A DNA stretch of 53,356 nt from Bacteroidota bacterium (lineage in GTDB: Bacteria > Bacteroidota > Bacteroidia > Chitinophagales > Chitinophagaceae), in the NCBI GenBank assembly GCA_018267545.1, contig JAFDYG010000285.1, positions 1 through 53,356 of the forward strand, written 5' to 3'. The position numbers and the translations under genes were made by a program. Shown here piece by piece: positions 5,639 through 37,695 of this stretch. Within the stretch, counting starts at the first letter, position 1, and each line of letters starts with the position of its first letter. Under the pieces are notes generated by a model. It had not been told where the DNA came from. It searched no databases and was given only the letters and a program-made list of their open reading frames with translations.

Positions 5639-6403
5639 ATGTCCATCACAAAAGAATCCGAGCTGACCGGGATGCAAAAAGCCAGCGAAGCCGTCGCCTA
5701 TACCTTAAAGGAAATGATCGCTTACGCCCAGCCCGGCATGAGCACAAAAGAGCTCGACGAATTCGGGGCCGGCATCCTCTCCCGCTTCGGAGCAAAGTCG
5801 GCCCCGTACGTGACCTACGGCTTTCCCGGCTGGACCTGCATAAGCGTCGACAATGAATTTTGCCATGGCATCCCCAGCCAAACCCGCATCTTAAAAGAAG
5901 GAGACCTCATAAACATCGATGTCTCCGCCGAGCTCGCCGGCTTCTGGGCCGACAACGGCGGCTCCTTTGTCCTTGGCAAAGACCTCCACCAGCACCAGAA
6001 GCTGGTCGACACTTCAAAATCCATCCTCCGCAACGCCATCAGCAACATAAAAGGAGGAGTGAAAATAGCAGACATCGGCCACCTCATGGAAACAGAAGCC
6101 AGAAAGCACGGCTTCAAGGTGATTAAAAATCTTGGCGGCCACGGCATCGGCCGCGGACTTCACGAAGACCCCAGCGAGCTCCTGAACTACAGGAACCGTT
6201 TTGACCAAAGAAGATTTAAGAAGAATTCCGTCGTAGCCATCGAAACTTTCATTTCAACTACCTCAACTCTTGCCGTAGAGCTCAACGACGGATGGACGAT
6301 GGCCGGCAACAAAGGAGGCTATATGGCGCAGCACGAGCACACGATCGTCGTTACCGACGGCAAGCCCATCATCCTGACGGAAATGAACGGGATTTTTAAC
6401 TAG
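5639..6403 (+). CDS. map: Type I methionine aminopeptidase
   Basis: 254 residues from ATG 5639 (MSITKESEL). It removes the initiator Met from new proteins in the cytoplasm. The five metal ligands of the pita-bread fold are visible: D94 (INIDVS), D105 (WADNGG), H168 (GGHGIG), E202 (AIETF) and E233 (QHEHT). The substrate-site H76 in EFCHGIP is also present. There is no N-terminal zinc-finger extension. The gene stands alone, not in a ribosomal-protein operon where Bacteroidota usually keep map, so it may be a second copy (inference). Its TAG stop shares the CTAG tetranucleotide with the stop of the convergent AAA ATPase gene. Confidence 0.95.
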   Translation: MSITKESELTGMQKASEAVAYTLKEMIAYAQPGMSTKELDEFGAGILSRFGAKSAPYVTYGFPGWTCISVDNEFCHGIPSQTRILKEGDLINIDVSAELAGFWADNGGSFVLGKDLHQHQKLVDTSKSILRNAISNIKGGVKIADIGHLMETEARKHGFKVIKNLGGHGIGRGLHEDPSELLNYRNRFDQRRFKKNSVVAIETFISTTSTLAVELNDGWTMAGNKGGYMAQHEHTIVVTDGKPIILTEMNGIFN

Positions 6404-7167
6404 CCCTTCTCATCCAGCAGAATTCGCAGCATCCCCGTATGATTATTCAAAAACTCCTTTGAGATCATATAGTTCTGCGTTTCCGTATAAGCAGTCTTTT
6501 GAATGCCATTCTCCGAAAGCTCATAGATGGTGGACGAAGGATAGGCCATCGCGATAGGAGAATGCGTTGCAATAATAAATTGCGATTGCTGACCTATTAG
6601 CTCATGCATTCTCACGAGCATCGCCATTTGCCGTGTCGGAGAAAGCGCCGCCTCCGGCTCATCCAGGATATATAAGCCATTCCCCGAGAACCGGTTCATA
6701 AACAAAGCCCAGAAAGATTCCCCGTGAGACTGCTCGTGAAGCGACTTCCCGCCATAGCTTTCGATAATACGTTTTCTTCCTTCTGATTTGCCGCCTTCTG
6801 CTTTTCTTCCTTCATCTTCGTCCAGGTTCTCTATTTCAGTCGCAAGGTTGAAAAAACTTTCGCTCCGCAAAAAGAACCCGGTACGAAACTTCCCTCCCCC
6901 TCTTCCTATCCGAATATATTCATGAAGCTCCGAATGTGAAGACCGCGTCGAAAAATTAAAATTGCTGCTTCCCCCCTCCGCATTGTATCCATTGGCAACC
7001 GCAATCGCCTCGATCAGCGTAGACTTCCCCATTCCGTTCTCCCCCGTTAGATAAGTCACCTTGGGATGAAAGGTCAGGGTCTTCAGCTGCCGTAAAGCCG
7101 GCAGGTTAAAGGGATAGCGGTCAAAGGAAGGGATCTTTTCCCTGATAAGCTCCAGCTTTTGTAACAT
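6400..7167 (-). CDS. AAA family ATPase (stand-alone, OLD/SMC-like)
   Basis: 255 residues from ATG 7167 (MLQKLELI). A further upstream frame to 7227 overlaps the monooxygenase gene and adds nothing conserved. It has Walker A GENGMGKST at about 42-50, Walker B LYILDEPEAALS at about 170-180, and a switch His in IIATHSPIAMAY. A charged, repeat-like insertion (DEDEGRKAEGGKSEGRKR) lies in the lid region. Such single-domain ATPases resemble ABC/SMC heads, and many act in DNA repair, defence or unknown processes. No partner nuclease gene is adjacent. It lies 32 bp downstream of the monooxygenase gene on the same strand. Confidence 0.8.
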   Translation of the reverse strand: MLQKLELIREKIPSFDRYPFNLPALRQLKTLTFHPKVTYLTGENGMGKSTLIEAIAVANGYNAEGGSSNFNFSTRSSHSELHEYIRIGRGGGKFRTGFFLRSESFFNLATEIENLDEDEGRKAEGGKSEGRKRIIESYGGKSLHEQSHGESFWALFMNRFSGNGLYILDEPEAALSPTRQMAMLVRMHELIGQQSQFIIATHSPIAMAYPSSTIYELSENGIQKTAYTETQNYMISKEFLNNHTGMLRILLDEKG

Positions 7168-7198
7168 GCTATAAAATACAAAAGATCTTGCCGCATTC

Positions 7199-8674
7199 CT
7201 ACAGGCCTTTAAAATAATCCCTGACACTATCCCCTACCAACGCCACATACCCATCCGGCCGGATAAGCACTACCCCTCTGTCCACACCATATGCCTTTAC
7301 AATAGCCTCATCACCTACCTGCACGACATTCACCCCTTCATCAACGTCAGCCGAAACACCCCCAAACACCAACAGCTTCCATTCCGGCCCCTTCAACCGG
7401 TCCGACAACCAACCTCCCCCAACCAATCGCACATCCGGAGCCCGGTCTCCCGCCCGAAGCCCCGCCCCTGCACTCAGCTCTCCCGCCCGCAACTCCACAT
7501 CCGCACCGCCCACCGACAACGAACTATCCCTATAGTTCAAATTAAGCTGTGTCGTATCCTGGGTCGCCAGCGTCTCGAAACCAGCCTTCCCCGTCGCTGC
7601 AGCAGCCATCATCGCCTTCTGCCGCTCCGAAGTAGCGGCAAGCAGCCAGTCGGCAATAGGAATCCTCTCCTCCCCATACGTATCCAGCAAACCATCCCCC
7701 GCCTGCCCATGAACCACCGCCGCCAGTTTCCAGCCCAGATTATAGGCGTCCTGGATCCCCGTGTTCATCCCCATTCCCCCCGCGATAGAATGCACATGCC
7801 CCGCGTCCCCGGCGATAAAAGCATTACCGACCCGGTAACGCTCCGCCCTGCGAATATTGACTCGGTAGATGGACTGCCAAGTACTATTCGTAAACCTTAC
7901 GCCCTCCATCTGGGTCCGTTCTTTAAAAAGCTCGTTGAACCCCTCCAGCGTCGGCGTAGGTACATTGCCCTCCTCATCCGGCAGCATCACCGCCTGCAGC
8001 TGCCAAATCCTAGTATCTTTAAAGGGAAATAACGCGAAAGCAATTCCGAACTTGGAACCAAGCCAGTTGTACCACGCATCCGGCGTCAACCCCTCGACCT
8101 CCACATCCCCCACCCAAAGCTGCTCCTGCTGGCGCGTCTCTCCGACGAAATTAATCCCGAGCTTCTTCCGCGTACTACTCTTCCCACCATCACAAGCCAC
8201 CATATACCTGCAAGCCACCTCCTCCACAAAACCAGCACGCTCCAACCGGCACATCACGCCGCCATCCGTATGAGAGACATCGGTCAGCTCCGTCGACCAT
8301 TCGATCGTCCCGCCTAACTCCCCCAGCTTGCCCCGCAAAGAATCCTCCACTTTCCACTGAGGCAGCAACAAAGTTTTAGGATAACGAGTATCCTCCCGTG
8401 CAAACACACTCCGCGGCGAATCCCCGATCAGCTGGCTCCCATTGAACTTCCGGAAAGGCAGATCGGTCCACCCCATCTTCATCAGCTCCTCCGCAATCCC
8501 CAGATCATTGAAGACTTCCAGGCTCCGCGGCTGCAGCGCCTTAGCCCTGGACCCACGCGGAGGCTCCGCCAGTCGTTCGACAATACGAAAAGGAACCTTA
8601 CGCCTGGCCAGCTCACAAGCCAGGGTCAGCCCCACAGGGCCCGCTCCTACAATAAGTACAGTAATTTGATTCAT
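7199..8674 (-). CDS. FAD-dependent monooxygenase (PHBH/PheA class)
   Basis: 491 residues. The N-terminal dinucleotide-binding motif is GAGPVGLTLACELARR (about 10-25). The DG-type segment is MVACDGGKSSTRKKLG (near 170). The FAD-ribityl motif GDAGHVHSIAGGMGMNTG lies near 290. The C-terminal 100 residues resemble the thioredoxin-like domain of phenol hydroxylases, including RAPDVRLVGGGWL. This class hydroxylates aromatic compounds with NAD(P)H and oxygen; some members inactivate antibiotics such as rifampicin. The substrate cannot be told from sequence. Its start faces the repeat-bearing gap at 8675-9349. Confidence 0.88.
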   Translation of the reverse strand: MNQITVLIVGAGPVGLTLACELARRKVPFRIVERLAEPPRGSRAKALQPRSLEVFNDLGIAEELMKMGWTDLPFRKFNGSQLIGDSPRSVFAREDTRYPKTLLLPQWKVEDSLRGKLGELGGTIEWSTELTDVSHTDGGVMCRLERAGFVEEVACRYMVACDGGKSSTRKKLGINFVGETRQQEQLWVGDVEVEGLTPDAWYNWLGSKFGIAFALFPFKDTRIWQLQAVMLPDEEGNVPTPTLEGFNELFKERTQMEGVRFTNSTWQSIYRVNIRRAERYRVGNAFIAGDAGHVHSIAGGMGMNTGIQDAYNLGWKLAAVVHGQAGDGLLDTYGEERIPIADWLLAATSERQKAMMAAAATGKAGFETLATQDTTQLNLNYRDSSLSVGGADVELRAGELSAGAGLRAGDRAPDVRLVGGGWLSDRLKGPEWKLLVFGGVSADVDEGVNVVQVGDEAIVKAYGVDRGVVLIRPDGYVALVGDSVRDYFKGL

Positions 8675-24037: not shown

Positions 24038-24904
24038 TCAAAGCCCGTCCCTATACTGCTGCGCCGTCGTACCCGTGATTTTCTTAAAGAACCGGTTGAA
24101 GTTGGAAGGGTCCGAAAAGTCGAAATCGTACGCAATCTCCTTCACGGACCTATTGCAACGCAGCTCTCTCTTGATCGAAGAAATCAGCCGCTGATGAATC
24201 ATCTGTTGCGCAGTAAGGCCGCTATATTGCCGGCAGACCTTATTGAGGTGTGTAGAGCTAATCCTTAATACCTCAGTATAATCCGTAACGCGGTGATACG
24301 CCATAAACTCCTTCTCCAACAACGACCGGAAACGGAAGAAGTCCGGATGAACATGCGTATCGCTTTCCACCTGGTAAACCGTCGCATAATGCCGGTTCAG
24401 CAACACCAGCAGCTGATACAAAATCGCCCTAAGCAAATGGCTGCTATCACTGCGAAGCAGCATAAACTCCTCTTCCACCCCGCGCACCAGGTCGAGAGCC
24501 CGGCGAAACTCTCTCGACGGCATCTTCATGCTCGTCGGACGAGCGTATTGATGAAAGAACTGGAAGCGATATAAAAACAGATCGTCCGTAAAAAACAGAT
24601 TCAAAAAATCCTTCTCGAAGAAAAGGGTGTACCCTTCTACATCCCTGGCATCCCACCGGCGGACCTGCCCCGGGGAAGTAAAGATGACCGTCCCCGGCCC
24701 CAGCACCGTCCGATTCTCATCCAGCGAAAAAGTTCCCTTCCCCTTTTCGATAAGCATCACTTCATAAAAACTGATCTGATGCAGGGTAGTGTCCAGGACA
24801 AAGTTCTTCAGGTTCTCGATCCGGCCGATATCCAGTAGCAGCTCCCTCCCATACTTCCGGGAAAGAAAATGATAACACTTTATTTCCGACGAGTCTGTTC
24901 CCAT
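24038..24904 (-). CDS. AraC family transcriptional regulator
   Basis: 288 residues. An N-terminal cupin-like sensor has SFYEVMLIEKGKGTF and LGPGTVIFTSPGQVRRW. A C-terminal double helix-turn-helix has LRISSTHLNKVCRQYSGLTAQQMI and KEIAYDFDFSDPSNFNRFFKKITG. It is divergent from the ABC operon starting at 25066, with 161 bp between, so it is a candidate regulator of that operon (inference). A TAGTTTTG -7 box lies on the minus strand at 24934-24941. Confidence 0.9.
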   Translation of the reverse strand: MGTDSSEIKCYHFLSRKYGRELLLDIGRIENLKNFVLDTTLHQISFYEVMLIEKGKGTFSLDENRTVLGPGTVIFTSPGQVRRWDARDVEGYTLFFEKDFLNLFFTDDLFLYRFQFFHQYARPTSMKMPSREFRRALDLVRGVEEEFMLLRSDSSHLLRAILYQLLVLLNRHYATVYQVESDTHVHPDFFRFRSLLEKEFMAYHRVTDYTEVLRISSTHLNKVCRQYSGLTAQQMIHQRLISSIKRELRCNRSVKEIAYDFDFSDPSNFNRFFKKITGTTAQQYRDGL

Positions 24905-24941: not shown

Positions 24942-25065
24942 ATATAAGAAACCACATCCAGCCATCAATATAATGGAAAACAATATATTATTCAATTTCT
25001 CCATAACTTATGGATGCCGTATATTTATCGCACAAAACTCCTTTCCAGAACCAACTCCCCAAATA

Positions 25066-26421
25066 ATGAAATCAATATTTGCGTGTAGTCTCGCCTTCCT
25101 TACAATCGCTCTGGTGTCCCTTATAAGCTGCAACAACAAAAAATTGCCAATTACATTGACCATATTAGGCGAAAATTCATCCAACCTTCAGGCGATGGAA
25201 GCCCTGAAAGGCAACTATGAAAAAGACTCCAATGTCAAAATAGATTTTAAACCCAACACCTTTGAAGACGCCTTTAATAAAGCCAATCAGGATTTTGCAA
25301 ACGGCACCGGCATATACGACATCGTCCTTCAATACAACTTCTCCTTGTCCTCCTTTGTCCGGAATGGATACGTCTATAACATCGACGAATTGAGCAAAGA
25401 CATCTCTACCGAACAAAAACAATTTGAAAACGACCTCTTCCCAAACGCATGGCAGGAAGTCGGCTATTACTATAAAAACCCGGCCGTTCCCTCCGAAGGA
25501 ACAATAAAAATCGGCTACCCGTTTGCCGCAAATACCATGGTCTTAGTCTATAACCGGGAAATGTTCGAAAATGCCGACAACAAAGCGCTCTACAAAAAAA
25601 CATACAAGGAAGAGCTTACCGTACCCACCGACTGGCAACAATATAGAAGGGTGGCAAAATTCTTCACCAACCCCGGCAAGAAAACATTTGGAGTCTGTCT
25701 GCAGGGTGCCGGAGGAGGGTGGCTATACTACGAATATTGCGACTTTTTGTTTGGCATGGGCGGTACCGTATTTGAAAAGCAAAGAGGATGGGAGGGGGAA
25801 GCAAATACCCCGTTAAAAATCACCTCTCCCGAGGCCGTCGCTGCGACTGATTTCTACAAAAGCCTAAAGCCATACAATGCCGGCAACTTCACAGCCATCG
25901 ATGCAACCGAGCAGACGAAGCTGATGAAAAATGGGAACATAGCCATGGCATTTGTCTGGAGCGACTATCTCTACGGCTTCACCTTTGCCGAAGGTGGGAA
26001 AGCGGACGATCAGTTTGGCTTTACTACCCTTCCCGGAAGCAAATCGCCGCTGGCTGGCGGATGCTACTATATCAACAAAAAAGCCAAGCATCCGCAGGAA
26101 GCGCTAAAGTATGTGATAAGCCTGATGCAGAACCAGAACCAGGTCGCACTGGCTAAAAAAGGGCTATGCTCCCCCCTCAAATCGACCTACGACGACCCCG
26201 AGGTTCAAAAAATACCCTATGCTAGCGCCTTGAAAAATTCGCTGCAAAGAGGCGTATACATGTTTGAAGCAGGGCCCGAAAGCGACCTCGTCAATCAGGC
26301 CCTGACGAACTATCTGCAGCAGCTTTGGGCGGATAAGCTAACCACAAAGGAAGCCCTGGAGCACGCCAGCGAAGACATCATCAAGGGCAGGGAAGAAATC
26401 TACAAGAAGCTCAAACATTAA
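25066..26421 (+). CDS. ABC transporter extracellular solute-binding lipoprotein
   Basis: 451 residues from ATG 25066, chosen because MKSIFACSLAFLTIALVSLISC is a lipoprotein signal (lipobox LISC). The body is a cluster-B/D type solute-binding protein, with a family 1 start (LTILGENSSNLQAMEALKGNYEKDSNVKI), YDIVLQYN, a hinge region and MAFVWSDYLYG. Length and pattern fit sugar-type (CUT1) binders or polyamine/iron-type binders. It is the first gene of a five-gene operon. In Bacteroidota most glycan uptake uses SusCD, so an ABC importer of this type is unusual. Confidence 0.88.
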   Translation: MKSIFACSLAFLTIALVSLISCNNKKLPITLTILGENSSNLQAMEALKGNYEKDSNVKIDFKPNTFEDAFNKANQDFANGTGIYDIVLQYNFSLSSFVRNGYVYNIDELSKDISTEQKQFENDLFPNAWQEVGYYYKNPAVPSEGTIKIGYPFAANTMVLVYNREMFENADNKALYKKTYKEELTVPTDWQQYRRVAKFFTNPGKKTFGVCLQGAGGGWLYYEYCDFLFGMGGTVFEKQRGWEGEANTPLKITSPEAVAATDFYKSLKPYNAGNFTAIDATEQTKLMKNGNIAMAFVWSDYLYGFTFAEGGKADDQFGFTTLPGSKSPLAGGCYYINKKAKHPQEALKYVISLMQNQNQVALAKKGLCSPLKSTYDDPEVQKIPYASALKNSLQRGVYMFEAGPESDLVNQALTNYLQQLWADKLTTKEALEHASEDIIKGREEIYKKLKH

Positions 26422-26424
26422 TTT

Positions 26425-28032
26425 TTGAGAATCAAGCAACTACCTGTAAACAAGCTGATAACGTTCGCCGTAATCCTCATTACGATCGTATTCCTGCTGC
26501 CTGTCTTTATCGGCGGAATTTCCGGCAATGGTGTATCTAGCTTGTTGACCGATTCGTCCAACGGCTTCATCCCTTCACTGGAAAGGGCCATCTTATTCAC
26601 GCTTCTCTCATCCATTTCAACAGTCATATTCGGCTTCTGCCTCGCTCTTCTGCTCTCCAACATTCCATCGGAATCGAAGCTGGGGCGGCAGCTTTCATTC
26701 TTTATCCTGCCTATTACCTTCGGGAACATCTCGATCGTATTTATATTAAAAATCCTCTTATTCAATACCGCTCTCCTCGATACGATTATAATAAAGGGCA
26801 GCCCGGCCCAAACCCTTTTCCTGCTGGTCGTCCAGCTCTGGCAATTCGGCTTCCTTTTCGCATATCTGTTCTGGCTCAACATCCAGGCTACCCCGCGACG
26901 CCTCCGGGATTATGCGATAGCGGCAGGACTCACCCGCTTCGAAAAGATTCGGGACATCATCCTTCCGCAATCCAGGAATCTCTTCATCCTTCTGGTGATC
27001 ATCTCATTTACCTTTTCGTTCTACGAAGACGCAAAAAGTCAATTCATCTTCAGGGCCTCACAGGGTACAGAAACAGAGCTCGTCAACCACTGGCTCGACC
27101 GGGTCTACCATTCCGATCTGTTGATTAATCCTAAATATGCGGGTCAGCAGGCCTTTGCGACAGGAATGTCTATATTCGTAATCGCCCTCCTTCTATTTCT
27201 GCTGCTGGGACTTTTAATAATAGTCGCAGTCAAGCTATTCTCAAAACTCAAAGCCCGCGCTGGAGCGCCCGCCCCCGCAACCCATAAAAAAACCTCATTG
27301 ACCATAGCAGCAGCAAGTATCGCTATAATCATAGCTCCGGTAATACTAGCCCTGCTAAAATCACAATACCATTTCTCCGACAATATCTATTCTCTCCTCT
27401 TTCCCTTTATCCTTACCTTGATCGGAGCAATCGCAGCAACCCTCTTCGCCATCACCTACGGCATTTTTTCCAAGCTGTCCTTTCAGCACCTGCTCAATGG
27501 ATTTAACGCAAAATCGCTCCTTTACTTTCTTATCCTATTCATCTTACAAATTATCCCACCCCTCTGCATAGTATTATGCGGATTCACGTGGCTCAGCTGG
27601 GTTGGCTATAGCTCCGACACGCTCATCTATATAGTTTGGGTCATCGGACATTGTATCCTCAGGCTTCCCTTGCTCGGGAGCTTTGTCCTCGTAGCCCATT
27701 TCTCGGTAAAAGCAAACGAATTGAACTATCAAATGGCTCATGGCATCTCCCGGGGCAACATCATAAAATACAGCTTCCTGAAAAGATTTAGAGCGGAGTA
27801 CATCCTGACCTTGCTATTTGCGTTCTCCTTTATCTGGAACGACTCCGGACTCAACGCAACGCTGTCGGATCAAATCCCCTCCTTTTCCTCCAACCTGCAA
27901 ATGCTATTCATCGGCAGAGCTGCAGACTATTCGAAAGCGACGGGCTTCGCCATAGTCGCATTGCTTCTGTCCTTATCCTGCATTTTCGGCTGGCAATACA
28001 TCATAAGAAAAAAAGATTACCTAAAAGCATAA
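26425..28032 (+). CDS. ABC transporter permease with two fused transport halves
   Basis: 535 residues, starting at TTG 26425; no ATG occurs before the first membrane helix, so the TTG start is required. There are about 12 predicted helices in two halves separated near residue 280 by a short Ala/Pro-rich linker (RAGAPAPATHKK). The first half has a good EAA-type loop (YAIAAGLTRFEKIRDIILP). The second has a weaker one (QMAHGISRGNIIKY). Fused double permeases are typical of iron(III) and thiamine importers (FbpB/ThiP type). It lies 3 bp after the binding-protein gene and abuts the ATPase gene. Confidence 0.88.
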   Translation: MRIKQLPVNKLITFAVILITIVFLLPVFIGGISGNGVSSLLTDSSNGFIPSLERAILFTLLSSISTVIFGFCLALLLSNIPSESKLGRQLSFFILPITFGNISIVFILKILLFNTALLDTIIIKGSPAQTLFLLVVQLWQFGFLFAYLFWLNIQATPRRLRDYAIAAGLTRFEKIRDIILPQSRNLFILLVIISFTFSFYEDAKSQFIFRASQGTETELVNHWLDRVYHSDLLINPKYAGQQAFATGMSIFVIALLLFLLLGLLIIVAVKLFSKLKARAGAPAPATHKKTSLTIAAASIAIIIAPVILALLKSQYHFSDNIYSLLFPFILTLIGAIAATLFAITYGIFSKLSFQHLLNGFNAKSLLYFLILFILQIIPPLCIVLCGFTWLSWVGYSSDTLIYIVWVIGHCILRLPLLGSFVLVAHFSVKANELNYQMAHGISRGNIIKYSFLKRFRAEYILTLLFAFSFIWNDSGLNATLSDQIPSFSSNLQMLFIGRAADYSKATGFAIVALLLSLSCIFGWQYIIRKKDYLKA

Positions 28033-29100
28033 ATGAAGAAACTGATATTCGAACAAGTTACTTTTGGCTATAGAAAAGATAAGCCCCTCTTTAGCAACCT
28101 TTCGTTTGAAATCGCACAACCGGAAGACAAGGGAATCGTGATTGGCTTAATGGGCGCAAGCGGCAGCGGTAAATCTACCATCCTGAAGCTCATCCTGGGC
28201 ATAGAAAAGACCTACAGAGGGGATATTTCGATCACGCCCGAAAACCCCATCGTCTCCTACGTCCCCCAGGAACCAGTTTTGTTCGAGCACCTGACGCCCT
28301 TCGAAAACGCAGAATATTTCAGCCGCATCAACAACTATAAAGCTAAATTCAATCGGCAGCTATTCGATGAGGTCTCCGGCGTCCTCCAAATCGGAAACAT
28401 CCTGAAAAGTAGCACGTCGGTCAATGAAATAAGCGGCGGCCAAAAACAACGCATCTCGCTGCTCCGCGCCATGAGCATCCAGCCGGACGTCCTGCTCCTG
28501 GACGAGCCGCTGACCGGCATGGACGAGGAAGTAAAAGACCAGTTCCTTCAAACGCTGGCGCTGCTCATCCACCGGTTCAGGCTGATGGTAATCTATGTAA
28601 CGCACCATCCCAAAGAAGCCGAATTTATCTCGGACCAAATTCTTTATCTGGAAAAAGAGCAAAATACAGAAGTCGTTTCCTGGGTTAGACAAACCGACAC
28701 CCAATCATTCTTCCATTATCCTCCAACCATTTCAGCGCTCAATGCGACAAAAAGATTTCAAACAAACACCCTTCAATTTAAACAAACAGAAGATGGAACC
28801 ATCATCCCGTCGCTCACGCCGAACGACCCTGCCACACGGTTGATAAGCTTTCATGAAGAAACAATCCAATTCTCGAACGAATCGGGTTTTGAATTTGAGA
28901 TAGCCGCCCAAACAGGAGCTTATACCCTCTTGAAGCTAAAAAACGTCCAGTCATTTCTCACGATCGACAATGAAACGCTCAGGAAGAAAAGTTTTCCTGG
29001 CTGCCGATTCATTTCTCTTTCGGGAAACGCAAATCTATACGATAGCAAAGGCCTTTTCTTACGAGCAACAGAAATTAAAAACAACAAAACAGCCATTTAG
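28033..29100 (+). CDS. ABC transporter ATP-binding protein with C-terminal extension
   Basis: 355 residues. Walker A GASGSGKST at 41-49, Q-loop VPQEPVLF near 78, signature SGGQKQR at 134-140, Walker B LLLDEP at 154-159 and the switch His at 191. Residues about 210-355 form a beta-rich extension where importers of the MalK/PotA group carry TOBE-like regulatory domains; I cannot identify it from motifs. It begins at the base after the permease stop and ends at the base before the SDR start. It powers the importer. Confidence 0.92.
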   Translation: MKKLIFEQVTFGYRKDKPLFSNLSFEIAQPEDKGIVIGLMGASGSGKSTILKLILGIEKTYRGDISITPENPIVSYVPQEPVLFEHLTPFENAEYFSRINNYKAKFNRQLFDEVSGVLQIGNILKSSTSVNEISGGQKQRISLLRAMSIQPDVLLLDEPLTGMDEEVKDQFLQTLALLIHRFRLMVIYVTHHPKEAEFISDQILYLEKEQNTEVVSWVRQTDTQSFFHYPPTISALNATKRFQTNTLQFKQTEDGTIIPSLTPNDPATRLISFHEETIQFSNESGFEFEIAAQTGAYTLLKLKNVQSFLTIDNETLRKKSFPGCRFISLSGNANLYDSKGLFLRATEIKNNKTAI

Positions 29101-29844
29101 ATGATAGACCAGCAGTCCTTTGTAATAACAGGCGTAAGCTCATTCCTTGGGAGAGCCTTTGTAAAAACGCTCTCTTCGAATAAAAGCTACAAGCTATTTA
29201 TAACGTCCAGGAGCAAATTCGAGTTCGACATTCCATCCGGCAGTAAAGACGTCCTTTATTTGCCGGGCATCGATTTAACCGACGAGGCTGATGTAGACAG
29301 GATGACCAAAGAAATCGACCAATTCCTTCCTGGTAAATTTCACGTAATCAACTGTCTGGGGCACTTCCCCGGCTACAAAACCGTAGCAGAAATCGACATT
29401 CAAACCGCAAAAAAGGTCTTCGACAGCAACATCCTCGCCCTATACAGCGTAGCATGTAAGCTGCTGCCGCTCATGTGCGAGCGAAACGGAGGCCACTTCA
29501 TAGGCTTCAGCACCCATACCCTTTATCAACACTATCCGAAAATGGTCGCTTTCTCAGCCGCAAAATCCGCCGTCGAAAGCCTGATCAAAGGAATCGCAAA
29601 CGAATACCTAAAAAAAGGCATCCACGCTAATACCATATCCCTTGCAACCCTCCAAACCGAGATTGAAATAAAGATGAAGCCAAAAGGCGACTCTAAAAAC
29701 TGGCTGAACCCCGATGAAGTTTGTAAAATGGTGGAAGACCTGATTCTACAGCCCAACCAGCTGATGAATGGAAACGTAATCCACGTCTACAAGCACAGTG
29801 ATAGCTATTTTAACGACTCCTACTTTAATAGAATAAATTCATAA
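29101..29844 (+). CDS. SDR-fold protein lacking the catalytic Tyr
   Basis: 247 residues with a Rossmann fold. The nucleotide loop is TGVSSFLGRAF (10-20), with Phe where most have Gly. NCLG (84-87) replaces NNAG, and N110 of the family is kept. S137/S138 are present in GFSTHT. The expected YxxxK reads F151-S-A-A-K155, so the catalytic Tyr is Phe. Either the protein is not a normal oxidoreductase or it uses a different residue. It starts directly after the ATPase stop. Its fusion into the transporter operon suggests it works on, or senses, the imported solute (inference). Confidence 0.85.
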   Translation: MIDQQSFVITGVSSFLGRAFVKTLSSNKSYKLFITSRSKFEFDIPSGSKDVLYLPGIDLTDEADVDRMTKEIDQFLPGKFHVINCLGHFPGYKTVAEIDIQTAKKVFDSNILALYSVACKLLPLMCERNGGHFIGFSTHTLYQHYPKMVAFSAAKSAVESLIKGIANEYLKKGIHANTISLATLQTEIEIKMKPKGDSKNWLNPDEVCKMVEDLILQPNQLMNGNVIHVYKHSDSYFNDSYFNRINS

Positions 29845-29846
29845 AA

Positions 29847-30764
29847 ATGACTGGCACCCCACCCCCACCACCCCCTACACCTAAATTCTATGAAACATCG
29901 GGGTTCAGGACAGCGATCGCCCTTTTCCTGGTTTATTCCATCCTCCTTACACTCCCGTCCTGGCTATACTTTAACACGGACCTATACAACGCCAAAACCT
30001 TATATACCCAATATTCTATCGACAAGAATAAATTCCTGGTTTCCTATTTAAAAATAGACGAAGTGCTGACCTGGTGTGCGGTTTGTATAACATCCCTGAT
30101 AATCATTTTCGTAAACACCCTGTATTACTGGTGGTCATTTAAGGATGAATTAATGGAACATCATTATGGAGTAAAGAAATCCCTATTTAGCTGGATTTTC
30201 TTCTTATTCCTGCTCTGGCTCGTGGGCACATTAGTCTGCTCTTTCATTTTCTTCTCCGCAGACTACAATAGATTTGGCAAATGCCTGGAGGAGGCGGACA
30301 AATACATCGACAAGACCTTGCAAGGCAGGGTAATTAGTGCTGACAGGCAATTCTCAAAAGAAATATCGGATATATTCGGCGAATTTGTCCATCACGTCGA
30401 ATGGTTTACGATCGGAACCATCATCTTGTTCATTATTATCGACATCCTAAGCTGGCGCGTCAAATATCAACAAGTAAATAATACCACTACCGCTACAACC
30501 CAAACAGAAGGAATGAAATTATTAATACCTCAAAAATCATTTGTGGTTAATCAGCTCCTAATAATCGACATTCCGGTAATAATTGGAATCTTATTGATCT
30601 CCTTCTTTGTATCGCTTTTACCCAAAGATGACGACACTATATTTGACTCAAAATTCGTCTTCGTAGCAGGCGGCATCGGCATGCATCTGATCATCTCGCA
30701 GCTCATATTCCTGATCCTGAACATCAAATACAAGCACGAAGAATACAAGACTAAACACCCTTAG
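29847..30764 (+). CDS. Six-helix membrane protein of unknown function
   Basis: 305 residues with a poly-Pro N-terminus (TGTPPPPPPTPKF). Predicted membrane helices lie at about 20-42, 72-95, 112-135, 186-207, 238-260 and 272-295. A soluble loop with many charges (about 140-185) contains YIDKTLQGRV. No family is recognised. It begins 2 bp after the SDR gene and ends the operon. Its place suggests an accessory of the transport system, but nothing in the sequence shows what it does. Confidence 0.7.
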   Translation: MTGTPPPPPPTPKFYETSGFRTAIALFLVYSILLTLPSWLYFNTDLYNAKTLYTQYSIDKNKFLVSYLKIDEVLTWCAVCITSLIIIFVNTLYYWWSFKDELMEHHYGVKKSLFSWIFFLFLLWLVGTLVCSFIFFSADYNRFGKCLEEADKYIDKTLQGRVISADRQFSKEISDIFGEFVHHVEWFTIGTIILFIIIDILSWRVKYQQVNNTTTATTQTEGMKLLIPQKSFVVNQLLIIDIPVIIGILLISFFVSLLPKDDDTIFDSKFVFVAGGIGMHLIISQLIFLILNIKYKHEEYKTKHP

Positions 30765-30781
30765 CCATAAACACCTTCTGT

Positions 30782-30802
30782 AGATGTACTATTACTACAT
30801 CT
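30782..30802. promoter_or_regulatory. Inverted repeat upstream of the nitroreductase gene
   Basis: AGATGTA (30782-30788) and TACATCT (30796-30802) are perfect 7-bp arms with a 7-base spacer, placed just upstream of the -7 box at 30807. The TGTA/TACA core resembles BlaI/CopY- or MarR-type operators. The cognate regulator is unknown. Confidence 0.5.
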
Positions 30803-30806
30803 GTCA

Positions 30807-30814
30807 TATCTTTG
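30807..30814 (+). promoter_or_regulatory. -7 box of the nitroreductase gene
   Basis: TATCTTTG, a perfect TAnnTTTG. The first possible start codon of the frame (TTG 30812) overlaps it, so the ATG at 30833 is the likely start. No clear -33 TTTG was found; the inverted repeat occupies that region. Confidence 0.6.
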
Positions 30815-30832: not shown

Positions 30833-31414
30833 ATGGTTCTATTCTCCGCCATACAATCCGCCATCATCCAACGCCGCAGCACAAAACCCGCCGCCCTGAA
30901 CGGAACCCTCATCCCCGACGAACAAATCCACCAGCTCCTCGAGCTGGCCAGCTGGGCTCCCACCCACGGCCTCACCGAACCCTGGCGCTTCCTCGTCTAC
31001 AGCGGACCCGCCATCCAGGAATTCTGCCGCCAGCACGCCGAGCTCTACAAGCAGCACACTCCAACGGAAAAATTCAACTCCTCCAAATACGAAAAACAGC
31101 TCCACAACGGCGACAAAGCTTCTCATCTGATCGCCGTCTATATGCAAAGAGGAGAAAATCCCAATATCGCGCCCATCGAAGAAATCTGCGCCGCCGCAGC
31201 CGCCGTCCAAAATATCCTCCTCGGCGCCGAAGCCCTGGGCATCGGTGTTCTCTGGAGCACCGGCGGTCTCATCCTCCATCCCGCGATGAAGCAGCACCTC
31301 GGCCTAAGGGAAGAAGACCACATGATCGGCCTCCTCTACATGGGCTACGCCGACGAACCAGCCAAACCAAGCCGCCGCACTCCCATCGAAACAAAAGTCA
31401 AGTGGTTCCGCTAA
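30833..31414 (+). CDS. Nitroreductase family protein (YdjA-like)
   Basis: 193 residues from ATG 30833. The start has the FMN-binding RRSTKPA motif and LLELASWAPTHGLTEPWRF, typical of small nitroreductases such as YdjA. A loop HNGDKASHLIAVYM and a C-terminal IGLLYMGYAD follow. The enzymes are FMN-dependent and reduce nitro or quinone compounds with NAD(P)H. The physiological substrate is not known. The gene is preceded by a promoter with an inverted repeat, so it is probably inducible. Confidence 0.9.
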   Translation: MVLFSAIQSAIIQRRSTKPAALNGTLIPDEQIHQLLELASWAPTHGLTEPWRFLVYSGPAIQEFCRQHAELYKQHTPTEKFNSSKYEKQLHNGDKASHLIAVYMQRGENPNIAPIEEICAAAAAVQNILLGAEALGIGVLWSTGGLILHPAMKQHLGLREEDHMIGLLYMGYADEPAKPSRRTPIETKVKWFR

Positions 31415-31438
31415 CCCGCGCACAGAAGCCCCAAACGC

Positions 31439-32149
31439 TTAATGCGCCTTCCCCAACCAATTAAACTCCAAATAATCATAATTCATATTCCCCGACACCG
31501 TATATAACCTCAGCACATGAACTCCTTTTTCTAAAGGCAGCACTCCCAATGTATCCACCTTATTCCAATGATGCCATTGCCTCCACGCTACCGTGTCCGC
31601 AGGCTGATACGTCGACCTCGCGCCCAACGGCCCCGTCACATCCTTACCGTCCAGGTCCAGCCGGATCTCCGCATCTCTATTGGCCGTATACATCAACCCG
31701 ACCCGATACATCCCCGACCTCTTCACTTTCACCGTATAATTGGTCCATTCCCCCGGCACCGTCCATCCCACATACAGCTTCCCCATCTCGGGCTTCACAA
31801 AATTGTAAGGATTATCATCGATGCCTCCCGTCTTCGTATAAGAAATGTCCACGCCCTCCCTCATCCTGAACTCATTCAAAAAGCTACCATTCGCAGGATT
31901 CAACATCCCGCTTCCATGATTTACCGCATCGCTGTCATGATACGCTACCCCCTCTCCTCCCTCGTCATATAGCTCACACTCCACCCTGCCCGGTATCTCC
32001 TGCGGCTTCCCCTGCCAGGGCGTCGACGCAGCCTGCCGCGTGCAAGCGCCCAGCACTCCAACGCCCGGCACTCCCGCGCCGCCGGCCTCACGCAACCCCG
32101 CGCCCACACCGGCCGTGATCATCAAAACGATAAGAATTTTTACCTGCAT
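31439..32149 (-). CDS. CBM6-type carbohydrate-binding protein, exported
   Basis: 236 residues from ATG 32149, which opens a hydrophobic signal (MQVKILIVLMITAGVGAG). A Gly-rich run and GAC, a possible lipobox, follow. The body is one beta-sandwich of the CBM6 type (about 55-235): VECELYDEGGEGVAYHD at the start, VDISYT, GEWTNYTVKVKRSGMYRVGLMYTA in the middle and GVHVLRLYTVSGNMNYDYLEF at the end. No catalytic domain is attached. It may hold glycans at the surface. The upstream frame to 32233 is unlikely. Confidence 0.8.
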   Translation of the reverse strand: MQVKILIVLMITAGVGAGLREAGGAGVPGVGVLGACTRQAASTPWQGKPQEIPGRVECELYDEGGEGVAYHDSDAVNHGSGMLNPANGSFLNEFRMREGVDISYTKTGGIDDNPYNFVKPEMGKLYVGWTVPGEWTNYTVKVKRSGMYRVGLMYTANRDAEIRLDLDGKDVTGPLGARSTYQPADTVAWRQWHHWNKVDTLGVLPLEKGVHVLRLYTVSGNMNYDYLEFNWLGKAH

Positions 32150-32306
32150 AAAATCTCCCCATTTACCCTGAGGACCCCAACAAAATAAGCATAAAATCCG
32201 TAACCAGCACGATGGTTTAATCATTCCCGCCACTCAGCCGTACCCCTTACCCGTTTGGTAATCCGCCCCGCCAAACCATAGCAACCCATCTACCTTCGCC
32301 CTTTAA

Positions 32307-33638
<1,332 letters not shown>

Positions 33639-33639
33639 T

Positions 33640-34713
33640 ATGACGAAAGTATTTTCATTCGACCATCCCATTATCCTCGAGTCAGGTGCAGTCCTCCCGG
33701 GCTACCACCTGACTTACTCTACCCATGGACAGCTGAACAGGGATGGCAGCAACGTCGTCTGGGTCTTTCACGCCCTCACGGCCAACAGCGAGCCCTACGA
33801 ATGGTGGCCCGGCCTGGTCGGAGAAGGAAAGCTCTTCGATCCCTTTAATTATTTTATCGTCTGCGTCAACATGCCCGGCAGCTGCTACGGCAGCATCGGA
33901 CCGCTCGACAAGGATCCGCTGCTCAGAGAGCCATACTATCACAACTTCCCGTTCTTCACCATCCGGGATATGATCCGGGCCTATCGTCCGCTCAAGGAAT
34001 ACCTGGGCATCAAAAAGATAGCGATCGGCATCGGCGGCAGCATGGGGGGACAGCAGCTATTGGAATGGGCCATCGAAGAGCCTAATCTCTTCCAATACAT
34101 TGTTCCCATCTGCACCAACGCCCAGCATTCGCCCTGGGGCATCGCCTTCAACACCGCACAGCGCATGGCCATCGAAGCCGACCCCAGCTGGGACGAGCGG
34201 CACGAAAGAGCAGGCATGGCAGGGATGCGCGCAGCCCGCGCTACCGCGCTCCTCTCCTACCGGCACTATGATACTTATCTGAAAATGCAGCCCCGCTCGA
34301 CGGGCTTCCTGGCCGAAACAGACTCGGGCCTCGCCGCTACCAGCGAAGGAGCGGCCTCCTATCAACGCTACCAGGGGGAAAAGCTGGCCCGCCGCTTCTC
34401 CCCGTTCAGCTACTATAAATTGAGTCAAAGCATGGACTCTCACGATGTATCGCGTGGCCGGGGCAACCTGACAAAGGCTCTGACATTGGTCCAAGCCAGG
34501 ACCCTGGTCATCGGCATCGAATCCGACATGCTCTTTCCCCTGCAGGAACAGCAGTTGCTGGCTTCGTTGATCCCAGGGGCCTTTCTCCGCTCGATCACTT
34601 CCCTCTACGGCCACGACGGCTTCCTCCTCGAATACAAGCAAATCGAAGCCCTCGTCCGGGACTTCCTCGCACACGCCGAAGCCGGGGATCTTGGCAATTC
34701 CAACTATCAATAG
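33640..34713 (+). CDS. metX: Homoserine O-acetyltransferase
   Basis: 357 residues of the alpha/beta-hydrolase MetX fold. The nucleophile is S134 in GIGGSMGGQQ, the Asp is in IESDMLFPL and the His in YGHDGFLLE. HALTANSEPYEWW carries the oxyanion region. It acetylates homoserine with acetyl-CoA. It follows metY by 1 bp, so the two enzymes form the direct-sulfhydrylation route to methionine. No SAM riboswitch was seen upstream of the pair. Confidence 0.95.
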   Translation: MTKVFSFDHPIILESGAVLPGYHLTYSTHGQLNRDGSNVVWVFHALTANSEPYEWWPGLVGEGKLFDPFNYFIVCVNMPGSCYGSIGPLDKDPLLREPYYHNFPFFTIRDMIRAYRPLKEYLGIKKIAIGIGGSMGGQQLLEWAIEEPNLFQYIVPICTNAQHSPWGIAFNTAQRMAIEADPSWDERHERAGMAGMRAARATALLSYRHYDTYLKMQPRSTGFLAETDSGLAATSEGAASYQRYQGEKLARRFSPFSYYKLSQSMDSHDVSRGRGNLTKALTLVQARTLVIGIESDMLFPLQEQQLLASLIPGAFLRSITSLYGHDGFLLEYKQIEALVRDFLAHAEAGDLGNSNYQ

Positions 34714-34727
34714 TATATTAGGAAACT

Positions 34728-35579
34728 ATGAAGAAAATTCTATCCCCCTTACTCCTTATCATAACAGTCATCTATAGCTGCCAGTCACCCAATCCTCATA
34801 TCTTACGTACCGATACGACCCACATCACCGATACCGCAGCAACCACCCGGCCCGGCGGCGGCCCACACTACAGCAGCCCCCAGCTCCTCGCATACGACCA
34901 GTGGCTCACCACCCTCGACACGCAAAAAGTCGGCAACAGCCTCCTCGCTATGCAGCGCTTCCAGCAGCTCTTTGCCAAACAGTCCGCCGCCATCTGCGAT
35001 ACCGCCTTCTACCTCTTCAACATCTTCCATACCCGCCAGGCCGACTTCCTATCGACCAATCCCAACACCAACGACTCCCTCACCCTCGCCCACAACGGCA
35101 TTCGCACCTATGAGGAAGAAGGTCTGCCCCAGCTTGCAAAAGACTGGGCCTTCCTCGACCGTTATTTCTCCCCATATGTATCCGCAGAAATGAAAGAGTT
35201 CCTATCCCAGGAATCGAAAGAAGACAAAGAAGGCTTCCAGGACGACGCGGCGCTGACCATCGCACCCGAGCACCTCGTCGACCGGGCCGTCTGGTGGGAA
35301 CAATTCGCCCACAAACATCCCGCCTTCCTATATACACAGGACGCACGCGACCAGCACGCCTTCTACCTTCGCATTTTGCTGACAGGCATGGACAATACGC
35401 CGATACAATCGGAAGGGAAGCTGACCGAATACTATAAAAACGCTTACACCTTCGCCCAAAAATCATACGGGCAAACTGAAACAAACGCCGTCCTGGCGCC
35501 CTATTTCACCGCCCTCAAGACAGGCGACACGGCAACGGTCTCCCGCATACAGGAGAAGTACGCACCGCCGCATCCCTAG
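34728..35579 (+). CDS. Putative lipoprotein of unknown function
   Basis: 283 residues. MKKILSPLLLIITVIYSCQSPN is a lipoprotein signal with Cys 18. After a Thr-rich linker the body is almost all helix (about 45-280), with FQQLFAKQSAAICDTAFYLFNIFHTRQ and AYTFAQKSYGQTE. No family is recognised. It starts 14 bp after metX and may be read through from the methionine genes, but nothing links it to that pathway. Its stop is 1 bp from the stop of the convergent fucosidase gene. Confidence 0.65.
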   Translation: MKKILSPLLLIITVIYSCQSPNPHILRTDTTHITDTAATTRPGGGPHYSSPQLLAYDQWLTTLDTQKVGNSLLAMQRFQQLFAKQSAAICDTAFYLFNIFHTRQADFLSTNPNTNDSLTLAHNGIRTYEEEGLPQLAKDWAFLDRYFSPYVSAEMKEFLSQESKEDKEGFQDDAALTIAPEHLVDRAVWWEQFAHKHPAFLYTQDARDQHAFYLRILLTGMDNTPIQSEGKLTEYYKNAYTFAQKSYGQTETNAVLAPYFTALKTGDTATVSRIQEKYAPPHP

Positions 35580-35580
35580 T

Positions 35581-37695
35581 CTACCTGACGCCAACTTCCG
35601 CAACGACTACGCCATTGCCACCGACTACGTGCTGAATAGAAAATTTAAAATACCGCGTATTTACCGGCCGGCTTAGCGCGACCACCTGCTCCAGCGGATT
35701 GGACTTGATATTGGAAAACTCGCCCTCGGCCGCCACCTTCCAGCTCACACCGTCGTCCGAAATATAAAAGACATACTGATCGGCAATTCCCTCCGTCCGC
35801 TTATCCTGCCGCGGCAGATAGGTAAACGCCTTGACCGTCTGCACCTTTCCCATATCGATGCTGATCTCCTGCGGGAACCGGCCCTCCAGCGCGCTATCCC
35901 GCTGCAAGGTGCTCCACACCGTCCGGCCGTCATCGTCGATCGCATTTCCATAACGGCTCCGAACGCCGGCAATCTGCTCCATCACCTTCCATCCACCCTT
36001 CGAAAGCCCCAGCTCCTTCGTCGTTACTTCACTAGCCGAACCATCTCCTTCAAAGCTCTTCGCCTTTACGATTCCACCGCCAGCTAAAGGAAAAGCCCCC
36101 GCATATACCGGAGACTTCAACCCCGGCTCCGAACCATCAAGTGTATAATGTATGCTCGCCACCGGGCTGATCGTCCCTACACTCACCACCCCTTCCTTGT
36201 CCCTGGTAATCGTCGGCGCTACCAGGTGCACCGGCTCTTTGAAAAGACCAAAATCACTAAGGGCAATACAAGCGCCCGCATCCGTAACCGACAAACGCAG
36301 CTTGCTCGCTGTCACATTCTGCTGCAGCCGGATCAGCCGGTTGGCCCCGATGCTCGTAGCGGTCCCGATCGTCTTCCAGGCGCCATCCACAAATGCCTCG
36401 ATCGTAACGGCCTTGATCCGCTGACCCAGCTTGATATTCTCACGCAGCCGTATCACGTTGAATGTAGTAGGTTTACCCAGATCGATCGACAGCTGCGGCC
36501 GGCTCACAGAATCATCTGTCGACCAATAGCTATATCGATCCTTATCGACCAGCATCCCCGGCCCATAAAGCGCCTTATTCTTTCCGCGTACATTGCTGGC
36601 GGTAAAAGTGGCGCCCTGCGCAAGGTTCACAGAAAAGATCTCCTTTAACAAATCTCCAAATCCCTTCAACGCATCCACATCGTGCTGGTCCAAACGGCCC
36701 TCCCGATTTGGCGCAAGCCCCAGATCGAGATCCGCGCCCCGACCGACACTCTGATAATATAAGTCCAGCAGCTGATAAGGAGATTTTACCTGCTCGTCCT
36801 GTGAAGTGTGATAGAACCAACCCGGCCGCAAGGGCACGTCGCATTCTGCCGGCAGCCAGTACTGACCATTCCAGGTTCCTTCCGTAGCCTCCCAGTACTT
36901 GTTATATCCATTTGCCGGCTTCTTGCCCTCATCCGGAGCCTGCGGCGTATAGGTCGCCCAGCAGGTCGTACCCGCATGTCCTTCCTCGTTGCCAACCCAC
37001 CGTACATCTGGACCAACGTCTCCAAAAATCGCTGCCCCCGGCTGCAATTGTCTGATCATACCCCAGGTCGTATCCCAGCCGTAATAAGTGGTCCGATCAA
37101 TTTTCCGTGTATCCCTCGTGCCGCCATAATAACCGTCGCCTCCATTCGCCCCGTCATGCCAGGACATAAATAGCGATCCATAGCCGGTATACAATTCTTT
37201 TAGCTGCGCCCGATAGGTCTTGACATATGCCGGTGACCCATACTCCGGATTATTCCGATCCCAGGGCGAACAATACAAACCCATCTTCATCCCCAGCCTG
37301 GCGCAGGCCAGCTGATATTCCTTCACCATATCCCCCTTGCCATTCTTCCAGGGGCTCTTGGTGATATTATGCTCCGTCGTCTTCGTCGGCCAGATACACA
37401 ACCCATCGTGATGCTTGGCGACGATCACGACCCCCTTGAATCCTCCCGCCTTTGCCGCCCCGACGATCTGAGACGCATCGAAATTTACCGGATTCAAAAT
37501 CTTAGGGTCCTCGTCCCCATACCCCCACTCCTTGTCCGTATAGGTATCCACCCCAAAATGAATGATACAATACATCTCCGTCTCATGCCACACCAGCTGC
37601 CGCTTCGTCGGCAGCACCCCAAAGGGCTTTGGCGGAGCCTGGGCGCACGCGATCTCGCTAACGAACAAAAGACCAAAGAATATTTTCCGTATCAT
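35581..37695 (-). CDS. GH29 alpha-L-fucosidase with discoidin domains
   Basis: 704 residues with a signal peptide ending IACAQ. The GH29 barrel (about 25-345) has IIHFGVDTYTDKEW, the KHHDGLCIWPTK motif and the likely nucleophile D181 in MSWHDGANGG. The pattern is that of subfamily B (alpha-1,3/4) rather than A; this assignment is from memory. It is followed by a F5/8-type discoidin module (about 355-480), a chitobiase C-terminal-like segment (about 495-550) and a second discoidin module to the end. It is 9 bp downstream of the GH35-GH20 gene. Confidence 0.93.
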   Translation of the reverse strand: MIRKIFFGLLFVSEIACAQAPPKPFGVLPTKRQLVWHETEMYCIIHFGVDTYTDKEWGYGDEDPKILNPVNFDASQIVGAAKAGGFKGVVIVAKHHDGLCIWPTKTTEHNITKSPWKNGKGDMVKEYQLACARLGMKMGLYCSPWDRNNPEYGSPAYVKTYRAQLKELYTGYGSLFMSWHDGANGGDGYYGGTRDTRKIDRTTYYGWDTTWGMIRQLQPGAAIFGDVGPDVRWVGNEEGHAGTTCWATYTPQAPDEGKKPANGYNKYWEATEGTWNGQYWLPAECDVPLRPGWFYHTSQDEQVKSPYQLLDLYYQSVGRGADLDLGLAPNREGRLDQHDVDALKGFGDLLKEIFSVNLAQGATFTASNVRGKNKALYGPGMLVDKDRYSYWSTDDSVSRPQLSIDLGKPTTFNVIRLRENIKLGQRIKAVTIEAFVDGAWKTIGTATSIGANRLIRLQQNVTASKLRLSVTDAGACIALSDFGLFKEPVHLVAPTITRDKEGVVSVGTISPVASIHYTLDGSEPGLKSPVYAGAFPLAGGGIVKAKSFEGDGSASEVTTKELGLSKGGWKVMEQIAGVRSRYGNAIDDDGRTVWSTLQRDSALEGRFPQEISIDMGKVQTVKAFTYLPRQDKRTEGIADQYVFYISDDGVSWKVAAEGEFSNIKSNPLEQVVALSRPVNTRYFKFSIQHVVGGNGVVVAEVGVR

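Follow-up and report, generated by a model that had tools for sequence, protein, structure and literature searches.

A contig of 53,356 nucleotides from a Bacteroidota bacterium of the family Chitinophagaceae (JAFDYG010000285.1, assembly GCA_018267545.1; the whole stretch is called the window here) carries a close-packed operon of five genes (25066–30764), which encode a solute-binding lipoprotein (SBP), a double-length permease, an ABC ATPase, a protein related to short-chain dehydrogenases/reductases (SDR) and a membrane protein of no recognised family. We favour the reading, to which we give about an even chance, that the operon encodes a CUT1-like importer of sugar type together with two partners, an orphan membrane protein and an SDR of non-classical kind that probably binds a cofactor, and that the five genes are a horizontally spread cassette. 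The set has the appearance of a novel type of unit, a pump with added partners.

All five open reading frames (ORFs) lie on the plus strand and follow one another at gaps of 3, 0, 0 and 2 bp; the ORF listing agrees with the original prediction on both coordinates and spacing. The search for the same gene order that had been proposed with that prediction recovered it twice, in Splendidivirga corallicola (Cytophagales, locus L040; gaps of 15, −4, −4 and −4 bp) and in a Bacteroidales metagenome-assembled genome (MAG; locus L041; −4, −4, 5 and 12 bp). The full set in one order is thus found at three loci from three orders, with gaps of −4 to 15 bp, and this close-packed recurrence bears out the proposal that the genes form one unit. 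Two further relatives carry transporter genes. Terrimonas ginsenosidimutans (L042) has only the SBP, permease and ATPase genes, followed after 9 bp, in the slot of the SDR gene, by a gene for a pyridoxal-dependent (pyridoxal phosphate, PLP) decarboxylase (L042 14031–15470), whose top NCBIfam match is diaminobutyrate decarboxylase, far under the cut-off of the model. The G968 copy is cut short within the ATPase gene by the end of its contig. The SDR and membrane genes, which had been predicted to be linked to the transporter, are so in two of these four relatives (L040 and L041). Profile searches (SDR, E ≤ 1e-20; membrane protein, E ≤ 0.01) recovered both genes exactly once from every one of the three carriers, and neither from the genomes of Terrimonas and G968. 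No SDR orthologue unlinked to the transporter was found in the 394 other genomes of the class sample (profile, E ≤ 1e-30; 395 genomes including the window's own, with at most about six first-look candidates scored per genome).

The SDR-like protein (29101–29844, 247 residues) matches Pfam adh_short (E 9.5e-21). It shares with classical SDRs such as Escherichia coli FabG the SDR domain as well as Asn110 and Lys155, which are retained in register in all three orthologues, but differs from them in its catalytic and cofactor-motif residues. Tyr151 is replaced by Phe in 3/3 orthologues, in agreement with the original prediction that the catalytic Tyr is missing, and Ser138 by Thr, Thr and Ala (Thr in the window). 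In the TGxxxGxG motif the TG and the last Gly are retained, but the middle Gly is Phe, Phe and Tyr (Phe in the window), and the PG motif of FabG is lost. Among 19 control SDRs (the loci besides the window's own among the 20 best SDR matches, partly related to each other, and including L020, a stretch with three stops that was entered with X), Tyr and Lys are present in all 19, and Ser and the middle Gly in 17 each. Much of what we take to be the cofactor-binding frame is retained (TG, last Gly, Asp58, Asn110 and Lys155). The orthologues are 65 and 57% identical to the window protein, on a par with the ATPase (64 and 58%), which argues that the SDR-like protein is under constraint and that its altered active site does not reflect decay.

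The SBP (25066–26421, 451 residues) has alternative ORF starts at 24973 and 25066; a signal peptide and a lipobox, read by eye as LISC, agree with the latter. It is of the CUT1 sugar type. It matches PF01547 (SBP_bac_1, E 3.2e-26), and in hhalign comparisons its profile reached 91% with MalE and 84% with UgpB versus 0.7% or less with YnjB, ThiB and YdcS. A search of the PDB with the same profile gave nine sequences at E ≤ 1e-5, headed by MalE3 and the trehalose/maltose-binding protein (TMBP); six of the nine bear the name of a sugar-binding or sugar-transporter protein, the other three a generic one. The permease (26425–28032, 535 residues, TTG start) is a fused protein, and four family members have 11, 11, 11 and 10 hydrophobic segments. 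BPD_transp_1 was found on the N-terminal half only and below cut-off (E 0.00067). This half carries an EAA-type loop and, among ten E. coli permeases, aligned best with MalF (74.5%) and UgpA (64.5%). The Splendidivirga permease also matches two Haladaptatus genes annotated as 'sugar ABC transporter permease' (36% of length, E 1e-5). Taken together, the matches of the SBP and of the N-terminal half of the permease point to a CUT1-like core with a fused permease. The ATPase (28033–29100, 355 residues; 64, 58 and 35% identity to three relatives) matches PF00005 (ABC_tran) at residues 33–160 (E 9.7e-25), and its Walker A, signature (SGGQ), Walker B and H-loop motifs are read as intact. Its hhalign alignment with MalK and UgpC is limited to residues 1–208, and a Pfam scan gave no TOBE match. 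The C-terminal region of the ATPase (about 145 residues, window 28662–29100) is present family-wide and matches no Pfam domain.

The last gene (29847–30764) encodes a membrane protein of 305 residues with about six spans. The claim that it has no recognised family is upheld by our searches, which gave no match in Pfam (E ≤ 1) or NCBIfam (E ≤ 0.1) and no confident match in the PDB, where its profile met a single sequence at 0.17. Its orthologues, at the same gene position, are only 34 and 25% identical, and it is the least conserved part of the set. The predicted six helices were found by hydropathy in two of three family members, but the third has five. An AlphaFold model of middling quality, built from a three-row alignment (mean pLDDT 67.5, pTM 0.63), shows one short helix in addition to six long ones, and Foldseek comparison of this model with the PDB gave no match at E ≤ 0.001 (best 1.3). 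In PHROGs the window protein has two weak matches of unknown function (E 0.017 and 0.084); its two orthologues and the permease have none. The L041 protein alone matches Phage_holin_3_6, below cut-off (E 0.05).

The make-up of the operon supports a reading in which the lipoprotein-anchored SBP delivers a small solute, probably sugar- or polyol-like, to the single fused permease, which would be powered by the one ATPase. The SDR-like protein may be a cytoplasmic NAD(P)-binding partner that acts on or with the importer, in a role more likely regulatory or structural than that of a classical dehydrogenase. The six-span protein could serve as its membrane docking or auxiliary subunit.

Several observations weigh against this proposal. 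Cofactor binding by the SDR-like protein and its contact with the membrane protein and permease are predictions, as are the substrate and the regulatory role. The predicted model of the SBP (pLDDT 48) is too poor to read a pocket or a substrate from it. The match of the N-terminal half of the permease to MalF falls short of certainty, its C-terminal half reached at most 0.8% with any of the ten E. coli permeases and is not assignable, and the permease gave no match to PDB sequences (profile, E ≤ 1) or to plasmids (window protein, 1e-5). Full five-gene loci number only three, and the Terrimonas core with its decarboxylase indicates that the core can exist without both partners. Two of the control SDRs, L006 and L020, lack both the Ser and the middle Gly, so these two losses alone are not unique. 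Finally, His139, Tyr142, Tyr145, Lys147 and Lys155 are invariant in all three SDR orthologues, and the first three of these could serve a non-classical catalysis.

The last point bears directly on a possible, though rather doubtful, alternative, an ordinary catabolic import operon in which the SDR-like protein is an active enzyme that relies on residues outside the classical set (His139, Tyr142 or Tyr145) for oxidation or reduction of the solute brought in, and the membrane protein is a minor accessory. SDR dehydrogenases often adjoin sugar and polyol importers, and in Terrimonas the same slot is filled by another enzyme, the PLP decarboxylase. This alternative has to accommodate the loss of both Tyr151 and Ser138, the former present in every control, and the Phe or Tyr at the position of the middle Gly in TGxxxGxG. 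If it were true, these residues would define a new SDR active site.

A more specific form of the regulatory role, which we consider unlikely, is a redox-gated importer: the disabled SDR would sense NAD(P)(H) and, via the six-span protein, switch the fused permease on or off, such that uptake tracks the redox state of the cell, and the cassette would have spread between orders of Bacteroidota. We know of no sensor-type SDR control device for ABC importers, and an SDR acting as a sensor subunit would be a novel type of control device for these transporters.

Returning to the favoured reading of an importer with two partners, its element of horizontal spread is suggested by the relationships of the genes. 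Terrimonas belongs to the same family as the window genome, yet its SBP and permease are only 47 and 33% identical to those of the window; the corresponding values are 68 and 54% for Splendidivirga, 59 and 52% for the Bacteroidales MAG and 47 and 36% for G968. In a tree of the joined SBP and permease (five rows, the letter make-up of the G968 row being unusual), the three five-gene loci form one clade with support of 100/99, and a tree that pairs the window with Terrimonas was rejected (p-AU 0.00056). Horizontal transfer of the five-gene cassette is the simplest reading of this conflict; old duplicates followed by losses may be an alternative history. Relative to the three-gene core of the Terrimonas type, the two partner genes would have been jointly gained or jointly lost. 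The G+C content of the operon is 0.42–0.50 (1-kb steps) versus 0.54–0.58 directly downstream (31001–37000); the upstream half of the contig is also variable (0.41–0.57). A phage or plasmid origin was considered and rejected: in addition to the permease, the membrane protein has no plasmid match (0.01), it has no phage match at 0.1, and the SBP and SDR profiles have no relatives on viral contigs.

Relatives of the permease are scarce. A search at E ≤ 1e-8 found none among the remaining 394 genomes of the phylum sample or the remaining 32 of the genus. At E ≤ 0.001, five of the 294 genomes sampled from the family, the window's own included, gave a match: that of Terrimonas (3.1e-86) covers query residues 11–529, and the three others (1.8e-8 to 8.6e-5) are single-length permeases that cover the first half only. 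A scan of genome contigs with the permease as single query gave 37 pattern-matching stretches and no relatives, while one with a two-row SBP alignment gave 280 stretches and three relatives (L040, L041 and L042). SBP-profile searches (E ≤ 1e-40) added G968 among 344 genomes of the order of L041 and nothing among 341 genomes of the order of L040. As these scans rest on short patterns or a limited first look, the real number of carriers may be higher. SBP_bac_1 proteins were present in 18 of 26 tested genomes, the window's own included, with one to four per genome where present. The earlier statement that importers of this type are rare in Bacteroidota therefore holds for this type of permease but not for SBP_bac_1 proteins.

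The sporadic distribution and the tree conflict would also fit a non-nutritional importer with a sensing, envelope or conflict role, carried in genomic islands. We regard this as improbable. Genes of kinase, VWA, tubulin-like (below cut-off) and AAA type do precede the G968 copy, and DUF4407 and HerA-like genes follow that of Terrimonas, but the neighbours vary between loci and the SBP is of sugar type. Likewise, the 11 PADLOC matches of the ATPase (best mad3, 3e-26) are most simply explained by shared ATP-binding domains. Membership of a defence system was rejected: the SBP, SDR-like protein and membrane protein have no PADLOC match at 0.01 and the permease has a single marginal one (Mem_04, E 0.0073). 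A chance placement of the SDR and membrane genes, as passengers downstream of a transporter with which they have nothing to do, is very improbable, since, for all that the Terrimonas core lacks both, the five genes keep one order and tight spacing at three loci from different taxonomic orders and the class sample holds no unlinked SDR orthologue at the threshold used.

Among known systems, the favoured importer with partners most resembles the CUT1 importers (MalEFGK, UgpBAEC and the trehalose/maltose system), with which it shares an SBP of MalE/UgpB type, a permease N-terminal half probably of MalF/UgpA type and a single ATPase gene. However, those systems have two permeases in place of one fused protein, the alignment of the ATPase described here with MalK does not extend into its C-terminal region, and the operon adds the SDR-like and orphan membrane genes. 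ThiBPQ and YnjBCD are alike in having a three-gene core of double-length permease, SBP and ATPase, but kinship with them was rejected, as the permease reached only 0.4% with YnjC and 0.2% with ThiP (hhalign; BLASTP to YnjC, E 0.27), the SBP has no detectable relation to theirs, and only the ATPases are alike. KefF, Kv beta and NmrA are transporter subunits with an enzyme fold or redox-sensor SDRs, and it is to this general type of role, a nucleotide-binding enzyme fold in the service of a transporter or sensor, that we would liken the SDR-like protein; to our knowledge no enzyme-fold subunit of this kind occurs with an ABC importer.

The titles and abstract beginnings of the open-licence PubMed Central (PMC) literature yielded no description of the five-gene system, in keeping with the original prediction that no described system joins these five parts. 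In the libraries and literature searched, the set was likewise not matched to any importer with a named substrate. According to one report, plant-associated Bacteroidota are without high-affinity ABC importers for simple carbon and rely on TonB-dependent uptake (PMC11892949). Against this pattern, a conserved importer cassette that includes an orphan membrane partner and what appears to be a disabled SDR would stand out as an exception.

An AraC-family gene (24038–24904, minus strand; Pfam HTH_18 and AraC_binding) is divergent from the operon as had been noted, but it stands beside only one of the three five-gene loci: none was seen beside L040 or L041 in the ORF translations, which were read with no family scan of the upstream ORFs. 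It is a candidate local regulator that does not belong to the conserved set. In Terrimonas a short DUF6597 ORF lies upstream of the importer core. Downstream of the window operon is a nitroreductase gene, preceded at 30782–30814 by an inverted repeat (AGATGTACTA/TACTACATCT, 30782–30802) and a promoter-like TATCTTTG at 30807. We take TAnnTTTG to be the Bacteroidota promoter box; such boxes number 29 in the window versus 27.5 by chance and are thus not in excess. This operator- and promoter-like arrangement suggests that the nitroreductase gene is probably a unit apart from the operon. Rfam searches at gathering thresholds (window, L040, L041 and L042) gave a single match, to RNase P RNA, which lies about 0.5 kb beyond the downstream end of the L041 operon.

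Other neighbours deserve brief mention. In Splendidivirga a gene for a reductase with a RibD C-terminal domain (L040 15686–16375) follows the membrane-protein gene after 18 bp and may be a sixth member of the operon. Upstream of the G968 copy (L049 1166–9676), genes for a protein kinase, a VWA protein, a tubulin-like protein (below cut-off) and a Clp-type AAA protein resemble an uncharacterised multi-gene system. Downstream of the Terrimonas copy (L042 15562–20128, L036 391–6202), two genes with no Pfam match, a DUF4407-transglutaminase fusion, a gene of no family and a HerA-like ATPase gene lie on one strand. Within the window, at 6400–8674, a gene for an FAD-binding, aromatic hydroxylase-like protein overlaps a same-strand AAA ATPase gene with an ABC/SMC-like P-loop.

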